Assembly: GCA_036496425.1 (NCBI GenBank)
Contig: DASXLG010000249.1
Span: forward strand, 1 to 33,037
Direction of reading: 5' to 3'
DNA: 33,037 bases
Origin: Terriglobia bacterium
GTDB lineage: Bacteria; Acidobacteriota; Terriglobia; 20CM-2-55-15
The notes under the pieces were generated by a model. That model was not told the DNA's origin, did not search any database, and saw only the letters and a program-made list of their open reading frames with translations. Positions 4,552 to 23,400 of this stretch are shown piece after piece (position 1 is the first letter of the stretch; every line of letters begins with the position of its first letter). Made by a program: the position numbers and the translations under genes.

Positions 4552-4593
4552 GCGAGACGCCGGGGTTGCATAGAATCCCAATTTCGACATGGC

Positions 4594-4801
4594 GTGCGAG
4601 CGCCCCCCCTGCCGCTTCGCGGCTCTCCCCCTGTATCAGGGGGAGAGTTTACGCTGGAGGAACCGGCAAACAGTCTCTTTCCGTCCTCGAATGTGACGCT
4701 GGTCACGTTGGCTCTGGGACTGCCGTTCTAATTAAGTTTACTGTCCCCCTGATAAAGGGGGACAGCCAGGCGCGAAGCGCCGGGCAGGGGGTCGCTCACA
4801 C
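4594..4801. repeat. MITE-like element with imperfect long terminal inverted repeats
   Basis: The left end (4594-4650) and the reverse complement of the right end (about 4740-4801) share the order GAGCG, a C-rich tract ending in CTGCC, GCTTCGCG, and a hairpin with C5 and G5 stems. Each end carries its own stem-loop: 4623-4647 (loop around TGTAT) and 4741-4765 (loop around TGATAAA). The core of about 90 bp has no ORF of note. The element fills the gap between the convergent stops of lhgO and the 4808 gene. It may also act as a bidirectional terminator. No transposase is nearby. Confidence 0.7.
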
Positions 4802-4807
4802 ACCATC

Positions 4808-5340: not shown

Positions 5341-7659
5341 CTACGTCCAGGAATACCCTGCCTTGGCAAGAGGCAGATGTCGAATCCGAACGCCCGTTGC
5401 TGCGGCGATCGCATTGCAGATCGCGGCAGGCGCCGGTGGCAGCGAAGGCTCGCCGAGGCCGGTTGGCGTATAGTCGGATTTGAGGAACTTCACCTGGATC
5501 TGGTTCGGTGCGACTTGACGCATTCGGGTCGGTTGATACTTGTCGAAGTTCGACTGCACGACAGCGCCGTTCTCGATGGTGATTTCCCAGGCCATCAAAT
5601 GGCTCATGCCTTCGACGAAGCCGCCCTGGACGAGGTTTTCCGCCTCGCTCGCATTGACGATCTGCTCGCCGATGTCCACGGCCGCCCATGCCTTGTCGAC
5701 TTTGAGCTTCTTGCTGGCATCGACAGAAACCTGGCAGACGTACGCCACGTAACCGGAATGCGCGTACTGGAACGACACACCCTGGCCGGTGCCTTTCGGC
5801 AGCTTGCTGCGGTTATTCCAGTTGGACATATCCCGGACGGCTTCCAGCACTGCTTTTGCTCGGGCAGCGTTGAACGGAGCATTGGCGCCAGTTCGATTCG
5901 TCGGAGGTTTGTAGGTCGTCGGGCTATTCAGAAGATCTAACCGATACTGCAGAGGATCTTTTCCGGCGGCCACCGCGATTTCGTCAATGAACGACTGCAT
6001 CACGAAAGAGGTGCCATTGAACGCCGGAGCCCGCATGGCTCCTGTCGGAATGTTGAAGGGGCCGAACTGGCTGTCGGACACCCAGAAGTTGTCGGTGAAC
6101 CCGCGCGGGAATTCGTTTGTGGGTACCACCGAAACGTTACCATAGCTGGCAACCATATCGCGGAACGCGGTCAGCTTGCCGTTGGCGTCCAAACTGGCTT
6201 TGAAATAGTGATAGGCCGGCGGACGATAGTCGTCGTGGGCGATATCGTCTTCACGCGACCAGAGCAGCTTCACCGGGACGCTCGGCTGGCCGGCTTTTTG
6301 CCGTTCATCTGCAACCAGACGCGCAATCTTGGACACTTCAACGTCATATTCTTTGTAGAGGCGCCGTCCGAAACCGCCGCCGGCTCGGACCATATGGAAT
6401 GTGACGTCTGCCGGTTGGACACCAGAAGGCACCGCGGCGTCATTCAACGATGGAATCTGAGCGGGAGACCAGATTTCGATCTTTCCGTCCTTATACCATG
6501 CCGTCGAGTTCTGCGGTTCGAGTGGCGCGTGTGAGAGAAGCGGGAACGAGTATTCCGCTTCGACCACCTTCGCGGCTGTTTTGAAAGCCGCTTCGGCGTC
6601 GCCTTCTTTCGCGGCACGCGCTCCGCCAAATCCTCCACCAACGGTAGGCTCTTGAGAAGCTTTCGATGCCAGGGATTTGATCTGGGCGTTGTAGCCTGCG
6701 GTGCTTTGCGTTCTCACTGCACCGTAATCCCAGTCGACCTTCAAGACTTTGTTGCGCGCGCTTTGAGCATGCCACCAGGTTTCGGCGACGATCGCGACGC
6801 CTCCCGCCCATGTTACGCCGCCACCGCCGCCACCGCCGCGTTGACCGCCTGCAGGAGCCGCCGGAGGAACTGGAGGCTCGATGACGAAAACGTGTTTAAC
6901 GCCCGGCTGTTTTTTAACTTCCTCAACATTGGCGCTCATCACTTTTCCGCCGAATGTCGGGCACTTTTGATAGACGGCGAACAGCATTCCCGGAGGATTC
7001 ACGTCGATGCTGAAGGCCGGCTGACCCGTAACGATAGCCATGACGTCGACGCCCTGAACCCGTGTTCCGAGGATTTTGAAATCCTTCGGATCCTTCAGCT
7101 TGATCTCGGCGACAGTCATCGGAGGCATCTTCATTGCGGCGTCCGCCAGAGCAGCGTATGTCGCCGTTTTGTTTGTACGGGCGTGTTTCACCATTCCCGA
7201 ACCAGTCGTCAACTCACTCTCAGAAACGTTCCACTGTTTTGCGGCGGTGGCGACCATCATCATGCGGGCCGCAGCTCCCACGTTGCGCATCGGCGTGTAT
7301 TGCGTCGGAGTTGCCGTACTGCCGCCTTCGATCTGGCCTCCGCCGTACCTTGCTGCGTCGAGGTCACCCTGCTGAACCTTGACCTGCTTCCAATCGACGT
7401 CGAACTCTTCCGCAATGATCATCGGCAGCGAATTGCGCATGCCTTGGCCCGTTTCCGGATTCCTGGCCATTAACGTGAAGGTGTTATCCGGATGAACCGT
7501 AATGTAATTGTTCGGATTCACCGGAGCAGGCGGGCCGCCACCGCCGCGCTGGGCGAGCATTTCAGTTTCGGATGCGTAAACGCCAACCAGCAAGCCGCCG
7601 CCTGCCAGGGCCGTCAGTTGGATGAAGGACCGACGATTCAGTTGTTTTTGATCTTTCAT
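5341..7659 (-). CDS. Tat-exported molybdopterin subunit of a xanthine dehydrogenase-family hydroxylase (isoquinoline oxidoreductase beta type)
   Basis: A 772-residue large subunit of a molybdenum hydroxylase, matching the two-subunit isoquinoline 1-oxidoreductase/aldehyde dehydrogenase group. A Tat signal (NRRSFIQLTALAGGGLLVG) opens the protein, so the folded enzyme should act in the periplasm. Cofactor-binding segments seen are GGGFGG, RAGGGFGRRLYKEYDVE, MRAPAFNGTSFVMQSFIDE, and near the C-terminus GLGEPSLPPAPAAICNAI, whose Glu corresponds to the catalytic base of the family. It follows the 2Fe-2S gene by 9 bp and has a strong AGGAGG site. A Gly-rich insertion (Gly7, about residue 275) is unusual. 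The physiological substrate (aldehyde or N-heterocycle) cannot be read from sequence. Confidence 0.92.
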   Translation of the reverse strand: MKDQKQLNRRSFIQLTALAGGGLLVGVYASETEMLAQRGGGGPPAPVNPNNYITVHPDNTFTLMARNPETGQGMRNSLPMIIAEEFDVDWKQVKVQQGDLDAARYGGGQIEGGSTATPTQYTPMRNVGAAARMMMVATAAKQWNVSESELTTGSGMVKHARTNKTATYAALADAAMKMPPMTVAEIKLKDPKDFKILGTRVQGVDVMAIVTGQPAFSIDVNPPGMLFAVYQKCPTFGGKVMSANVEEVKKQPGVKHVFVIEPPVPPAAPAGGQRGGGGGGGVTWAGGVAIVAETWWHAQSARNKVLKVDWDYGAVRTQSTAGYNAQIKSLASKASQEPTVGGGFGGARAAKEGDAEAAFKTAAKVVEAEYSFPLLSHAPLEPQNSTAWYKDGKIEIWSPAQIPSLNDAAVPSGVQPADVTFHMVRAGGGFGRRLYKEYDVEVSKIARLVADERQKAGQPSVPVKLLWSREDDIAHDDYRPPAYHYFKASLDANGKLTAFRDMVASYGNVSVVPTNEFPRGFTDNFWVSDSQFGPFNIPTGAMRAPAFNGTSFVMQSFIDEIAVAAGKDPLQYRLDLLNSPTTYKPPTNRTGANAPFNAARAKAVLEAVRDMSNWNNRSKLPKGTGQGVSFQYAHSGYVAYVCQVSVDASKKLKVDKAWAAVDIGEQIVNASEAENLVQGGFVEGMSHLMAWEITIENGAVVQSNFDKYQPTRMRQVAPNQIQVKFLKSDYTPTGLGEPSLPPAPAAICNAIAAATGVRIRHLPLAKAGYSWT

Positions 7660-8133: not shown

Positions 8134-8185
8134 AACAATTCTCCTCTAGAGTTAAGGATTCAACCGCGGTTTGATCAGTTAACTA

Positions 8186-8220
8186 GGGTGGGAGCCTATC
8201 ACTTCCGAAGGGGTGGGAGC
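8186..8220. promoter_or_regulatory. Two direct repeats GGGTGGGAGC upstream of the molybdoenzyme operon
   Basis: Identical 10-mers at 8186-8195 and 8211-8220, 25 bp apart centre to centre, lie 50-90 bp before the operon start codon. Spacing of about 2.4 helical turns could suit a dimeric regulator, but chance or a decayed repeat is possible. Confidence 0.3.
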
Positions 8221-8232
8221 AACCAAATCAGG

Positions 8233-8308
8233 ACAGTTTAGCCGCAGATGCCGCGGATCACGCAGATAGGTCTATCTGCGTAATCCGCGGCATCTGCGGC
8301 TAAACTGT
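8233..8308. repeat. Near-perfect 36-bp-arm palindrome (repeat family A, copy 1)
   Basis: Arms at 8233-8268 and 8273-8308 pair over 36 bp with a single A/G mismatch and a 4-nt loop (GGTC). The core GCCGCAGATG.CGCGGAT is shared with the element at 11386-11470. It begins 1 bp past the stop codon of the TonB receptor gene, so it can fold in the 3' end of that mRNA as a terminator or stabilising stem. Confidence 0.9.
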
Positions 8309-8309
8309 T

Positions 8310-11204: not shown

Positions 11205-11385
11205 CAGTTCGGCTCTCCTTGAACGTTGCGAATACATGATTTACGGTGCGGGACACGGGAACGTTACGGATTGCGGATTTTTTTAACGGATTTTTACAGG
11301 AACTGGTGCCTCTAGAGGAGATTAGCGGGGACTTTCTCCATGCCAGTATTTCTTGCCGCCGGCCGACATAATACCGCGTTGTTTA
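11205..11385. other. Intergenic region upstream of the TonB receptor
   Basis: It contains the receptor's ribosome site on the minus strand and AT-rich patches (seven-T run near 11278) with three nearby copies of AATCCG on the minus strand. TATTAT-like boxes exist near 11370 on the minus strand but no convincing -35. No gene is seen. Confidence 0.5.
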
Positions 11386-11470
11386 GCCGCAGATGACGCG
11401 GATGACGCAGATGGTTGCAAATAAGAGACTTATTGATGCGCCCATCAGCGTCATCCGCGACATCTGCGGC
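11386..11470. repeat. Palindromic repeat family A, copy 2
   Basis: Arms 11386-11414 and 11442-11470 pair over 29 bp with two mismatches around a 27-nt loop. The left arm GCCGCAGATGACGCGGATGA matches the 8241-8260 core of copy 1 at all but two or three positions. It lies 8 bp past the stop codon of the DUF3300 gene, the same position relative to its gene as copy 1. Confidence 0.9.
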
Positions 11471-11478
11471 TGCTTGAC

Positions 11479-19804: not shown

Positions 19805-21117
19805 ATCTCCAGATCGGGGTACTCATTGGCTACTCCGCGCTGTTCATCACGGTGGGGCTGTTCATATCCCGGCGGGTGAAAAAGGCGGACGACTTTCTGG
19901 TTGCCGGACGAAGCCTGAGCCCCGGCCTGATTGCCGCGACATTTCTTGCCGCCAACATCGGCGCGGGATCGACCGTTGGCGCGACGGGACTGGGTTACAT
20001 CTACGGCTTTGGCGCGTGGTGGTGGGTCGGCTGTGCCGGTATCGGTTCCTTCATTCTCGCAAATACGGTCGGACCGAAGATCTGGTCGCTCGCGGCGAAG
20101 CATGGCTGGCGAACCGTCGGCGACTTTCTCGACTACCGTTACAGCCGTTCGGTGCGCGGCGTCATTGCCGTGTTGCTCTGGCTGGGCACGCTGATGATCC
20201 TTGCCGGCCAGCTGATCGCGATTTCACAGATTCTCGCAGTGGTGTCGGCCCTGCCAAAGTGGGAAGGCTGCCTCATTGGAGGAGTTGTTGTAACGGCCTA
20301 TTTTGCCGCCGGCGGTCTTCTCAGTTCGGCTTGGGTCAACCTGATTCAGCTCACCGTGAAGCTTGCGGGTTTCACGCTCGCAGTCCCTTTCGCGATCGCC
20401 GCGGCCGGAGGATGGGAAGGGCTGCAACCCGCCATCCGGACATCGACTCCGCTGGGCGCATCCGGCGTTTTGTCTTATGTGGCGATTCTCGTCCCCTCGT
20501 TCGTCATCTCGCCCGGTTTGATTCAAAAACTCTACGGGGCGCGCGATGCGCGCGCCGTCCGGCAGGGCGTGAACTGGAACGCGCTGGGATTGATCGTCTT
20601 TGCTTTTGCGCCGGCCATCCTCGGCATCGTCGCGCATGCTCGATTCCCGGGACTGGCGAATCGGGAACTCGCGCTTCCCCTCGTCATGACAAAGCTGATG
20701 CCCGGATGGCTGGGGCTGCTCACGCTGGCCGCCGTGTTTTCGGCCGAGGTCAGTGCGAGCGACGCGATTCTCTTCATGCTTTCGAGTTCGCTCAGCGTCG
20801 ACCTTTATAAGACGTTTTTGAAACCGAAAACGTCGGACCGGGAACTGCTCCGTATCGGACGCATTACGGCTTTCGCCGGCGCCGGCTTGGGCGTTGTGCT
20901 TGCGATTGTTCTGCCGTCGATCATTTCCGCCCTTCAAATTTTTTACACCCTGATGGCGGTGGCGCTGTCGGCGCCGCTGCTCGTCGGCCTCTACGCGCGG
21001 CGACCGACGGCGGCGCGGGCGATCGTGGCGATCGTCAGTTCGGTTTCTCTGACGGCATTCACGCAGTCGGCGCCAATAGGAATATTGGCCGCGTTCGTGG
21101 TAATGATTATGCCGTGA
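19801..21117 (+). CDS. Sodium:solute symporter (SSS family)
   Basis: A 438-residue inner-membrane transporter with about 12-13 hydrophobic segments. The SSS signature is at the N-terminus: KKADDFLVAGRSLSPGLIA, then AATFLAANIGAGSTVGATG and LGYIYGFGAWWW. The middle shows ALTGGWLSSA-like AAGGLLSSAWVNLIQ and the conserved SAEVSASDAILFMLSSS, which in family members contributes to the Na+ site. Members move sugars, amino acids, organic acids or nucleosides; the substrate cannot be told. It starts with GTG overlapping the methyltransferase stop and ends overlapping the peptidase GTG, so it is the middle of a translationally coupled trio. Confidence 0.92.
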   Translation: MNLQIGVLIGYSALFITVGLFISRRVKKADDFLVAGRSLSPGLIAATFLAANIGAGSTVGATGLGYIYGFGAWWWVGCAGIGSFILANTVGPKIWSLAAKHGWRTVGDFLDYRYSRSVRGVIAVLLWLGTLMILAGQLIAISQILAVVSALPKWEGCLIGGVVVTAYFAAGGLLSSAWVNLIQLTVKLAGFTLAVPFAIAAAGGWEGLQPAIRTSTPLGASGVLSYVAILVPSFVISPGLIQKLYGARDARAVRQGVNWNALGLIVFAFAPAILGIVAHARFPGLANRELALPLVMTKLMPGWLGLLTLAAVFSAEVSASDAILFMLSSSLSVDLYKTFLKPKTSDRELLRIGRITAFAGAGLGVVLAIVLPSIISALQIFYTLMAVALSAPLLVGLYARRPTAARAIVAIVSSVSLTAFTQSAPIGILAAFVVMIMP

Positions 21118-22154
21118 ATCGCAGATCCTTCCTTGGGGCACTCACGGCTGCGGGTCTGTTGAACCAGACCGTGTCCTACGCACAAGCGCGCGAGGGATTC
21201 ATCACCGACGTCGACGGTATCAAGGTCGGACACTTCACCGAAACACGCAGGCCGACGGGCTGCACCGTCATTCTTTATGAAGCCGGTGCTGTGGGTGGCG
21301 TCGATGTCCGCGGCTCCGCTCCGGGGACTCGCGAAACGGATCTCCTCAAACCGACGAACCTGGTGGACAAGGTCAATGCCATTGTTCTTTCCGGCGGAAG
21401 CGCGTTCGGTTTGGATTCCGCTACAGGCGTGATGCGATACCTCGAAGAACATAATGCCGGGTACCCGACTGCCGGCGGTAAAGTGCCGATCGTTCCGGCG
21501 GCGATCCTTTATGACCTTAATGTTGGCGATGGGAAAATCCGGCCCAACGCGGACTCGGGGTACAAGGCCTGCACGAATGCCAAATCCGGAGCGGTCGAAG
21601 AAGGTAGCGTCGGTGCCGGCGCCGGGGCCACCATCGGCAAGATCGGCGGCGGAAAACCGATGAAGGGCGGGATTGGAACGTCGAGCATCAAGCTGCCGAA
21701 CGGCCTCGTGGTCGGCGCGATTGTTGCGGTGAACTGCGTTGGAGATGTTATCGATCCCAGGAGCGGAAAGATCGTCGCGGGCGCGCGCACGGCGGACGGG
21801 AGATCGTTTCTGAATATCATGGAGACGTTCCGCTCGGGCCGCGGTGTGGTTCAGAACACGCCGCCGGGGCAGAACACGACCATAGGTGTGGTTGCGACGA
21901 ATGCGCGATTTGACAAGACACAGATGACCAAGATTGCGGAAATGTCTCATGACGGCATGGCTCGCGCAATCAACCCGACCCACACGCCGTCGGACGGAGA
22001 TACGCTTTTCGCGCTTTCCACCGGGACGGGGGCGGCAAACGCGAATCTTACGGCCATCGGGGCTCTCGCGGCGGAAATGGTTACCGAGGCGATCCTTCGC
22101 GCGGTGAGGAAGGCGAAATCAGTGCCCGGTTATCCGAGCGTAAGCGAGCTGTAG
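21114..22154 (+). CDS. P1 (S58/DmpA) family peptidase with Tat-type signal
   Basis: A 346-residue member of the Ntn-like DmpA/P1 peptidase group (MEROPS S58), autoprocessing aminopeptidases acting on small D- or beta-linked peptides. The signal region NRRSFLGALTAAGLLNQT is of Tat form. Domain landmarks: ITDVDGIKVGHFTE, GGVDVRGSAPGTRETDLL, IVLSGGSAFGLDSATGVMRYL, the GAGAGATIGK stretch and MKGGIGTSS, then VGAIVAVNCVGDV, where self-cleavage occurs in this family. The C-terminus has HTPSDGDTLFALSTG. GTG overlaps the symporter stop by 4 bp. An exported peptidase with an importer suggests breakdown and uptake of small peptides or amides; this is inference. It ends 41 bp before a MITE-like element. 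Confidence 0.92.
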   Translation: MNRRSFLGALTAAGLLNQTVSYAQAREGFITDVDGIKVGHFTETRRPTGCTVILYEAGAVGGVDVRGSAPGTRETDLLKPTNLVDKVNAIVLSGGSAFGLDSATGVMRYLEEHNAGYPTAGGKVPIVPAAILYDLNVGDGKIRPNADSGYKACTNAKSGAVEEGSVGAGAGATIGKIGGGKPMKGGIGTSSIKLPNGLVVGAIVAVNCVGDVIDPRSGKIVAGARTADGRSFLNIMETFRSGRGVVQNTPPGQNTTIGVVATNARFDKTQMTKIAEMSHDGMARAINPTHTPSDGDTLFALSTGTGAANANLTAIGALAAEMVTEAILRAVRKAKSVPGYPSVSEL

Positions 22155-22195
22155 GGAAGGTCTGTGGCAAAGAAGCACAGATGTCGTTCAGGCAA

Positions 22196-22411
22196 CATTC
22201 CCCTCCGTATTCAAGGAGGGGTGGCCGAGCGATCATACCGTTAGAACGCGAGGACGGGGTGGTTAGGAAAAGGTCGCGAAGCCTCATTATTTATGCTCGC
22301 GTAGCGCACCCTATTTTGTTGAAATTTACCAACCACCCCGTCTGCGCCGCTGCGGAACGGGGATCTCTTGTTAGTGGCGCAGCCACCCCTCCTTGAAAAC
22401 GGAGGGGAATG
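22196..22411. repeat. MITE-like element with 30-bp terminal inverted repeats
   Basis: The ends 22196-22225 and 22382-22411 are inverted copies over 30 bp with one mismatch, starting CATTCCCCTCCGT. A second nested inverted pair, GACGGGGTGGTT (22253-22264) and AACCACCCCGTC (22331-22342), lies inside. Each terminal repeat also forms its own small hairpin (CCCCTCC with GGAGGGG). No transposase ORF is inside the 216 bp. It occupies the gap between the convergent stops of the P1 peptidase and the 22425 gene. Its sequence differs from the 4594 element, but the architecture is the same. Confidence 0.85.
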
Positions 22412-22424
22412 GGCTTGGCCCAAT

Positions 22425-23003
22425 TCATTCCGCGCGGCCGACCAACCCTGCCTTGTACAGCCGTTCATCCATGTACATGCGTCCTGTCGCCTGGAAGATC
22501 GGCGTGTGCGCGATTTCGCAGAGATACTCCGGAATCGCCCAGAGGGGCTCTTCAGTCGTCATCCACTGCAAAGAATCAAACCGGGCCAGATTCACCGGCC
22601 TCCGCGAATACCCCCGCAGCGTTTTCTCACCCTTCAAGTTGTAGTAGTGCTCGAAGTAAGACAGCGCGAGCTCGCGCAACGTGCGGTAAACCGGAGAACG
22701 AAACCTCAGGCCGGCATAATTCGACTTTCCGATCGCCCCCCAATGCCCATTTGTCCGGTAGACAGCGATCACATGATCGTCGTCGCGCACGGCTTCGAGA
22801 TCCAGGATCAAGGGCGGATGACCGTTCGCGCGCAATGCCGCAGCGGCAAAGAGGGCGCCTTCGAAACAGTGTGCCGTATTGAAGTCGATGACGAGGCGGG
22901 GTGACCGGCAGGTCTCGCCGGACTTCTCTTTGTTGTACGGAAGGTCATCGAGATAACGCTGGATTTTTTCCGGCGTGGAGAGCTTATGCAGCAGCTTATG
23001 CAT
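22425..23003 (-). CDS. Conserved-looking protein with Cys-His transglutaminase-like pattern, unknown function
   Basis: A 192-residue cytoplasmic protein with no named family that I can assign. The segment AHCFEGALFAAAALR (Cys46), followed by GHPPLILDLEAVRDDDHVIA (His77) and IGKSNYAGLRFR (Asn95), has the Cys at a helix start and a His on a later strand, as in transglutaminase/papain-like folds. A catalytic role is inference. Basic tail motifs GEKTLRGYSRRPVNL follow. The start at 23003 overlaps the thioesterase stop by 8 bp; an upstream ATG at 23030 would overlap by 35 bp and adds MPFEVLSPG. No signal peptide is seen. It is probably co-transcribed with the thioesterase. Confidence 0.75.
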   Translation of the reverse strand: MHKLLHKLSTPEKIQRYLDDLPYNKEKSGETCRSPRLVIDFNTAHCFEGALFAAAALRANGHPPLILDLEAVRDDDHVIAVYRTNGHWGAIGKSNYAGLRFRSPVYRTLRELALSYFEHYYNLKGEKTLRGYSRRPVNLARFDSLQWMTTEEPLWAIPEYLCEIAHTPIFQATGRMYMDERLYKAGLVGRAE

Positions 23004-23400
23004 TCCTGGCGATAATACTTCGAATGGCATCCGGAAGCGGGACCGATTTGAAGGTCGAGGCGTCGACGCAGACAACGGTGATGTATCCCTCCGCGAGCTT
23101 CTCCGTGGTTGTATCGGAGACGATCTCAAAATTGTAACGGATGGTCTTCTCTCCCTTCAGCTGCGGGTTCAACCGAACCCTGATGGCGCCGCCAAGCGGT
23201 ATGGGTTTCGAGAATTTCGAAAACGCTTCGACCCGGGGCAGCCACATTTCATGGGATTTCAGAACGGACTGCAGATCCATTCCTGCCGCCCGGAACATCT
23301 CCTCTTCGGCGTGTTCGGCGAACTTGAAAAAGTGCGGAAAATGCACAATGCCTGCCGCGTCCACGTCCGCCCAATAAGTCTGCAGCCTCACCTCGAACAT
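22996..23400 (-). CDS. Acyl-CoA thioesterase, YbgC/4HBT hotdog family
   Basis: A 134-residue hotdog-fold protein. The N-terminal YWADVDAAGIVHFPHFFKFAE is the 4-hydroxybenzoyl-CoA thioesterase motif, with the conserved Asp residues before AAGIV and the aromatic HF pair, followed by AEEEMFRAAG on the hotdog helix. Such enzymes hydrolyse acyl-CoA or acyl-ACP thioesters; the chain preference is unknown. It is the first gene of a two-gene minus-strand unit and its start codon overlaps the likely -35 region of the divergent aminotransferase. Confidence 0.88.
   Translation of the reverse strand: MFEVRLQTYWADVDAAGIVHFPHFFKFAEHAEEEMFRAAGMDLQSVLKSHEMWLPRVEAFSKFSKPIPLGGAIRVRLNPQLKGEKTIRYNFEIVSDTTTEKLAEGYITVVCVDASTFKSVPLPDAIRSIIARNA

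Follow-up and report, generated by a model that had tools for sequence, protein, structure and literature searches.

A dispersed, REP-dimer-like hairpin repeat in a Terriglobia genome, found in part within an IS903-like casing

The window analyzed here (the whole stretch of DNA under study, 33,037 nucleotides from a Terriglobia bacterium of the Acidobacteriota) contains a palindromic element, the window copy of what we call family A, at positions 22196–22411. An earlier, sequence-only reading had described this element as MITE-like, with 30-bp ends carrying one mismatch, a nested 12-bp inverted pair, small hairpins inside each end, and a position between convergent stops, and in each of these particulars it was correct. 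In particular, 22196–22225 is identical to the reverse complement of 22382–22411 at 29 of 30 bases, the 12-bp pair nested within these ends (22253–22264 and 22331–22342) is exactly complementary, CCCCTCC/GGAGGGG hairpins occupy 22200–22221 and 22386–22407, and the slot is faced by the end of a plus-strand gene at 22154 and the stop of a minus-strand gene at 22425. A further element, which that reading had placed at 4594, does indeed have the same plan and a different sequence, and is referred to here as family B. The features of the locus are as follows.

4589..4806, no strand: window copy of family B (the 4594 family), same plan as A, different sequence
21114..22154, plus strand: upstream neighbor, peptidase of family S58 (Pfam PF03576, E 3.8e-54), convergent partner of the A slot
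22196..22411, no strand: window copy of family A, two inverted double-hairpin arms flanking a variable middle
22200..22221, plus strand: left end hairpin CCCCTCC-GTATTCAA-GGAGGGG, paired locally in 42 of 42 aligned copies, in one of them via G-T
22225..22253, plus strand: left second hairpin CCGAGCG...CGCGAGG, with a tandem G.A mismatch; CGCTCGG, GGC/GCC or CGCG versions in other copies
22253..22264, plus strand: inner arm GACGGGGTGGTT, exact complement of 22331–22342
22331..22342, plus strand: inner arm AACCACCCCGTC, partner of 22253–22264
22342..22382, plus strand: right second hairpin CTGCGCC...GGCGCAG, from fold prediction and copy alignment
22386..22407, plus strand: right end hairpin CCCCTCC-TTGAAAAC-GGAGGGG, paired locally in 42 of 42 aligned copies
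22425..23129, minus strand: downstream neighbor, a weakly vasohibin-like protein (Pfam match below cut-off)

For each strand, the predicted RNA fold of the window copy is far more stable than that of shuffled sequence (z −9.1 and −9.5, with 0 of 200 shuffles equally stable); on the plus strand it consists of an outer stem leading to a four-way junction, from which two side hairpins and an inner stem branch off. This nearly perfect long duplex is, however, an exception within family A. Among 42 aligned full-length copies of 177–254 bp, in which the end stems are either CCCCTCC/GGAGGGG or CCCCGCC/GGCGGGG, just 3 have the CCCCTCC type on both arms as the window copy does. The variable bases of the end stems pair locally in 42 of 42 left arms (41 if G-T is not counted) and in 42 of 42 right arms, whereas pairing across the arms is found in just 16 of 42 copies even with G-T counted, and the left and right arm types are combined independently of each other (3, 21, 5 and 13 copies; Fisher P 0.26). 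The left second hairpin, parsed in 40 copies, varies in a paired fashion too: CCGAGCG is paired with CGCGAGG through the tandem G.A mismatch in 15 copies and with CGCTCGG in 8, CCGAGGC with GCCGAGG in 4 and CCGCGCG with CGCGCGG in 3, and ten one-off forms mostly pair more poorly. Family B is similar, with local pairing of the variable stem base in 49 of 51 hairpins and cross-arm pairing in 2 of 14 two-armed elements. Because the end stems pair within and not between arms, it is the local hairpins that are conserved, arranged as in a REP dimer, and A is better described as two inverted REP-like double hairpins than as a classical inverted-repeat transposon. The sequence-only reading is supported in that A is multi-copy, intergenic and inserted (see below), but its anatomy of 30-bp ends was wrong, the ends being local hairpins.

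A blastn search of the host genome with A returned 126 candidate places, 40 of which were scored, and the DNA fetched in the course of the work holds 64 unique places for A and 40 for B. An element-blind sample of 431 kb, drawn from 40 contigs, one in every ten, each represented by its first 20 kb or in full, contains 7 A and 3 B places, corresponding to roughly 100 and 43 per genome, estimates that are rough because 4 of the 7 sampled A places share one contig. Family A is present in at least 8 of 41 genomes, all of them from the host's own family (8 of 11 there and 0 of 30 outside it, in the same search with up to 18 candidates scored per genome). None of the 64 A places lies within a called gene, 14 of the 64 being at contig ends and unclassified. 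(One 26-kb contig, C337, which includes loci L028 and L116, carries five A copies, and some A copies on this and other contigs have additional outer sequence, AAGGAGCGCGCTGCGCGCG..., in common.)

The gene for the S58 peptidase and that for its vasohibin-like neighbor are adjacent in three relatives. In one of these (G001) the slot between them is empty, with 22 bp separating the aligned coding ends; in the second (G005) it holds a different palindrome, unrelated to A, and in the third (G006) a nearly perfect hairpin, again unrelated. In two more relatives the second neighbor was not seen; next to the S58 gene, one has an A-like core within other ends (G004; L166 2555–2856, GTGGTGTCCCA...TTTGACA, inverted match 20 of 25) and the other a further unrelated palindrome (G002). 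The B slot retains both of its neighbors in G005 alone among the loci of 7 relatives, and B is absent there. Orthologous positions are therefore not always occupied, as they might be by a conserved RNA, the A slot being empty in G001 and filled otherwise in G005 and G006. These differences at one slot show A to be an insertion.

The sequence-only reading had offered two explanations for the presence of two such families in one window, a role as bidirectional terminator and a common mobilizing enzyme. As regards the first, we classified the elements by the orientation of the flanking genes, using a home-made gene caller trained on the host genome. The 50 classifiable copies of A comprise 17 convergent, 26 tandem and 7 divergent ones, and the 35 of B comprise 12, 18 and 5 (three further B places, inside called genes, and 2 at contig ends fall outside the classification). 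Compared with spacers of at least 100 bp, 22 of 142 of which are convergent, the convergent share is raised for both A (17/50, P 0.001) and B (12/35, P 0.005), and 19 of the 26 tandem A copies lie nearer the upstream stop. Long inverted repeats of any family, scored in the spacers of the 40 contigs and the window (those longer than 1,500 bp excluded), are also commoner in convergent than in other spacers at a score of at least 16 (13/46 versus 28/273, P 0.003; none in shuffles) and of at least 20 (9 versus 20 spacers, P 0.02). (Long hairpins of a further family, AGCCGCAGATGACGCGGATGACGCAGAT, occur in the window at 8134–8309 and 11205–11478 and in spacers of L296, L308, L328, L329 and L332, and hairpins made of GAAGCACAAGAGGCACAAGA-like sequence in spacers of L298, L303, L305, L307 and L320.)

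These excesses, together with the filling of the same slot by unrelated palindromes in relatives, are what would be expected if A were primarily a bidirectional terminator or 3′-end stabilizer selected at convergent slots, with its mobility incidental. The position bias of A and B toward convergent spacers is modest, however, and that of long inverted repeats is lost at stricter cuts, whether spacers are restricted to those of at least 100 bp (6/22 convergent versus 16/120 other, P 0.11) or the strictest threshold, a score of at least 30, is applied (1/46 versus 5/273, P 1.0). Moreover, a T-tract (U-tract) terminator was found at 0 sites on either strand of 22100–22500, the slot of G001 is empty, tandem copies make up 26 of the 50, and the same distribution is general among REPs, published examples of which favor tandem and convergent spacers and 3′ ends (PMC3733652). 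The positional side of the terminator proposal fits while the T-tract is missing; A may act in termination, but as the primary reason for the existence of the family we regard this as rather unlikely.

With respect to mobilization, subsets of both A and B are enclosed in a common casing, in that an outer repeat, GGCTTTGCACAAAAAGTCG, lies in inverted orientation external to the hairpins. When up to 5 of its 19 positions may differ, the outer repeat marks 24 of 121 ends in A and 11 of 77 in B (about 0.08 with shuffled controls, 0 with the reversed pattern), and in 21 of the 24 A matches it is located 27–30 bases outward of the A core. The A figure is inflated because 11 of the 24 ends come from loci fetched for the outer repeat itself; of the other 13, 11 stem from loci retrieved with the A core and 2 from loci retrieved with B. 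Most A ends are free of the casing. Indeed, neither window copy has an intact outer repeat: the best matches at the ends of window A have 6 and 7 mismatches of 15, and window B has at best a degraded repeat on its left, with 5 mismatches of 15. Nor could a target duplication be defined for window A. Terminal repeats with a 9-bp duplication are a feature of the casing as a class and of one host A copy (L038, 244 bp, with the exact duplication CTTGCAGTG), but not of the window element. L038 is the one exact case among 8 host elements with an outer repeat at both ends; another has a duplication with 2 mismatches and 6 have none in the register used by the scripts, although one of those six (L106) can be seen by eye to have GTGACTATG on both sides if an internal duplication is skipped.

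Beyond the host, the outer 19-mer (up to 1 mismatch) was found in 8 of 41 genomes, in which the reversed pattern gave no match, and an exact scan of a species-level collection returned 88 stretches, 61 of them labeled Acidobacteria. The remainder come from bins labeled Rubrobacter, Entotheonella, Aenigmatarchaeota and others, among which mixed bins and single chance matches are possible. Of 53 facing pairs of outer repeats separated by 40–420 bp, 27 have 9 flanking bases that agree to within 1 mismatch, 16 of them exactly, as compared with a rate of 0.0004 for unmatched flanks, and no other length of at least 5 is comparable. A slightly altered set of 53 pairs, clustered by interior under a coverage rule, gave 19 clusters, 9 of them with at least 2 members, in which host A and host B copies each group with one from the relative G005. 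In bins labeled Abditibacteriaceae, Rubrobacter and Aenigmatarchaeota there are elements of about 100–130 bp with casing ends, exact 9-bp duplications and interiors unrelated to A or B (L178 4050–4148, L180 1301–1399, L213 4238–4336, L233 6602–6700, L205 5741–5866 and L248 28–155). A CCCCTCC-type motif is found within 25 bp of a casing pair in 6 of 53 cases (a raw count taken without a control), and REP-like hairpins are thus suggested as targets of the casing. (Casing elements abut or interrupt CCCCTCC-type hairpins in relatives at L139 1519, L144 252–271, L146 191, L148 1519 and L162 1501. Separately, an array of degenerate, GCGAAACTAAAGGCGAGATCGC-like units at L101 ~2256–2556 adjoins a one-mismatch copy of the 15-base outer motif.) Searches of plasmids yielded no element related to a cased A copy and only weak short matches to a 99-bp MITE, and in the literature searched GGCTTTGCACAAAAAGTCG occurred as a printed sequence in a single, unrelated paper.

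A candidate for the enzyme of the casing came from two viral contigs, L350 and L352, in which the outer repeat bounds a 3,890-bp element; since the element and its site are identical in the two, we count them as one insertion. At L350 740–4629 the element has both outer repeats and an exact 9-bp duplication, AGCCTATGC, and encodes a transposase with PF01609 DDE and SWIM zinc-finger domains together with a DNA methyltransferase. (The C-terminal part of this methyltransferase is restriction-endonuclease-like, and methyltransferase-like reading frames similar to it occur in two Entotheonella-bin loci with a casing end, L187 and L234.) The best NCBIfam model for the transposase is of the IS5 family, with a score of 120.5 bits that falls short of the cut-off of 140; among the matches listed, the best in plasmids carry the annotation IS5-family or IS903B transposase, with 27.5% identity over residues 93–379, and the best in phage records are those of HK022, one of them annotated as IS903. 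The IS903 of HK022 has the ends GGCTTTGTTGAATAAATC, which agree with those of the casing at 14 and 13 of 19 bases, and, like the casing, makes a 9-bp duplication. IS903, a member of the IS5 family, is unlike the L350 element in that the latter has an N-terminal SWIM domain on its transposase and a DNA methyltransferase aboard, and unlike A and B, which are non-autonomous palindromic fillings of IS903-like ends.

When the L350 transposase was compared with the loci retrieved in this work, the only match besides itself was L201, a 405-bp casing element from an Entotheonella bin that retains a C-terminal scrap of the protein (50% over 30 residues, with E 1.9e-5 in this set of loci) and so fits an internally deleted derivative of an L350-type element; the 30–50-residue fragment itself, used as a query, gave no match in plasmids, Pfam, NCBIfam or viral contigs. 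A common mobilizing enzyme for A and B, as proposed from the sequence, is supported for the subsets with the shared outer repeat, 9-bp duplications and an IS903-related transposase, but not for the window copies, which have no intact repeat. Ends shared with a transposase-encoding element were found for the casing alone.

Other candidates for an enzyme were set aside. An IS5-type C-terminus beside an Entotheonella outer repeat was dropped because, of 20 places read out of 78, only the starting place has the outer repeat at up to 3 mismatches, the other 19 having a different end, GGCTCAGGACTCA. A 2.6-kb segment (L231 1810–4391) with outer repeats at 0 and 4 mismatches and an exact 9-bp duplication, ACCTCAGCC, was not accepted as an autonomous element, as it holds a 572-aa non-transposase reading frame and a truncated IS5-like one. 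The PF13737 profile matched nothing in 11 genomes, a negative that is uninformative because control genomes had no match either.

An alternative source of mobility would be a RAYT, a Y1 tyrosine transposase that acts in trans on the hairpin ends of a REPIN- or BIME-type element. The REP-like local hairpins, the inverted doublets and the intergenic siting near 3′ ends are all as in REPs (PMC3733652, PMC3116915), and at least one Y1_Tnp gene is present in 9 of the 11 genomes of the family, including one gene in the host (L027 3439–4341). The host gene, however, is flanked by a 30-bp inverted repeat of its own, AGGGGGCGCACACCTGAATTC..., a third repeat family that recurs in L038, L054 and L102, and A hairpins were found at 0 of 12 RAYT loci of the family (about 1.5 kb on each side, less at two of them), two loose pattern matches proving on inspection not to be A; one locus (L293) has a loose match to the outer repeat. 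In addition, the 42 aligned copies show by eye no GTAG beside their end hairpins, and cased copies as a class make 9-bp duplications. In 40 of 42 copies the right second hairpin has CGTC next to it (by eye), but this stem does not begin with the paired A-T that is reported for CGTC REPs, which according to PMC3733652 lack a dedicated transposase. We consider it quite improbable that a RAYT moves A. (L027 also contains, at 6115–6624, a tandemly repetitive reading frame of SSPPNGFSRREHPFRRHQTDFHGANIRF-like units.) Still less credible, to the point of being very improbable indeed, is a conserved structured non-coding RNA, which would account for the strong fold and the compensatory stem changes but is contradicted by the orthologous slots, empty in one relative and filled by unrelated palindromes in others, and does not agree with the many copies per genome, with the lack of an Rfam match in the window or with that of a promoter-like site in 22100–22500.

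Several known systems resemble A in part. Like A, the REP dimers and BIMEs of PMC3733652 are inverted pairs of short stem-loops that are high in copy number, intergenic and located mostly in tandem or convergent spacers near 3′ ends; dimers with differing arms are common among them, and structured spacers occur. Unlike them, A has no GTAG, has 7-bp end stems with loops of 7–8 bases, carries two hairpins per arm over 177–254 bp and lies in some copies within a transposon casing with 9-bp duplications. The REPINs of Pseudomonas fluorescens (PMC3116915) are likewise hairpin-forming REP doublets with compensatory changes, for which long-hairpin and clover folds are discussed, but they adjoin their cognate RAYTs, whereas the RAYT loci here are without A hairpins. 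The Tn3-derived TIMEs (PMC4133298) share with the casing elements a non-autonomous character and conserved ends around different core modules, and differ from them in their 38-bp repeats and 5–6-bp duplications. Finally, insertion sequences are described to insert into REPs (PMC1525189), with palindromic repeats as targets, and some casing elements here do abut CCCCTCC hairpins; in the cased A copies, by contrast, the element itself encloses the hairpin core.

Family A is found in high copy number, with stems that covary locally, as an insertion, and partly within a casing that also carries B and unrelated palindromes. The reading we prefer, to which we assign a probability of about 0.75, is that A is a dispersed REP-dimer-like repeat with inverted double-hairpin arms and an exchangeable middle that has spread non-autonomously through intergenic DNA, a subset of its copies doing so in the casing. 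On this account, an IS903-like transposase of this kind would move the cased copies in trans, and copies free of the casing, such as window A, would either have lost it or have arrived by another route. Copies may persist mainly near the 3′ ends of genes, either because hairpins are tolerated there or because they are useful as 3′-end or terminator structures. A bolder version, which we think clearly unlikely to hold in full, is that unrelated palindromes, A and B among them, have been captured again and again by an IS903-like casing that occurs in several phyla and that carries them to the 3′ ends of genes, where convergent slots would be acceptors with interchangeable palindromes; transposition would then supply 3′-end hairpins or terminators that are replaced between related species.

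As a REP-dimer-like repeat, A is ordinary in kind; what sets it apart is that unrelated hairpin families share one cross-phylum, IS903-like casing and that one palindrome replaces another at a single slot. For the spread of REP-like palindromes without a linked tyrosine transposase, the occurrence of two unrelated paired-hairpin families in one casing, with defined ends, 9-bp target duplications and a candidate transposase, makes capture by a transposon a testable route. Equally, palindrome replacement at the same convergent slot means that whether such elements are parasites or useful terminators may be tested through occupied and empty slots.
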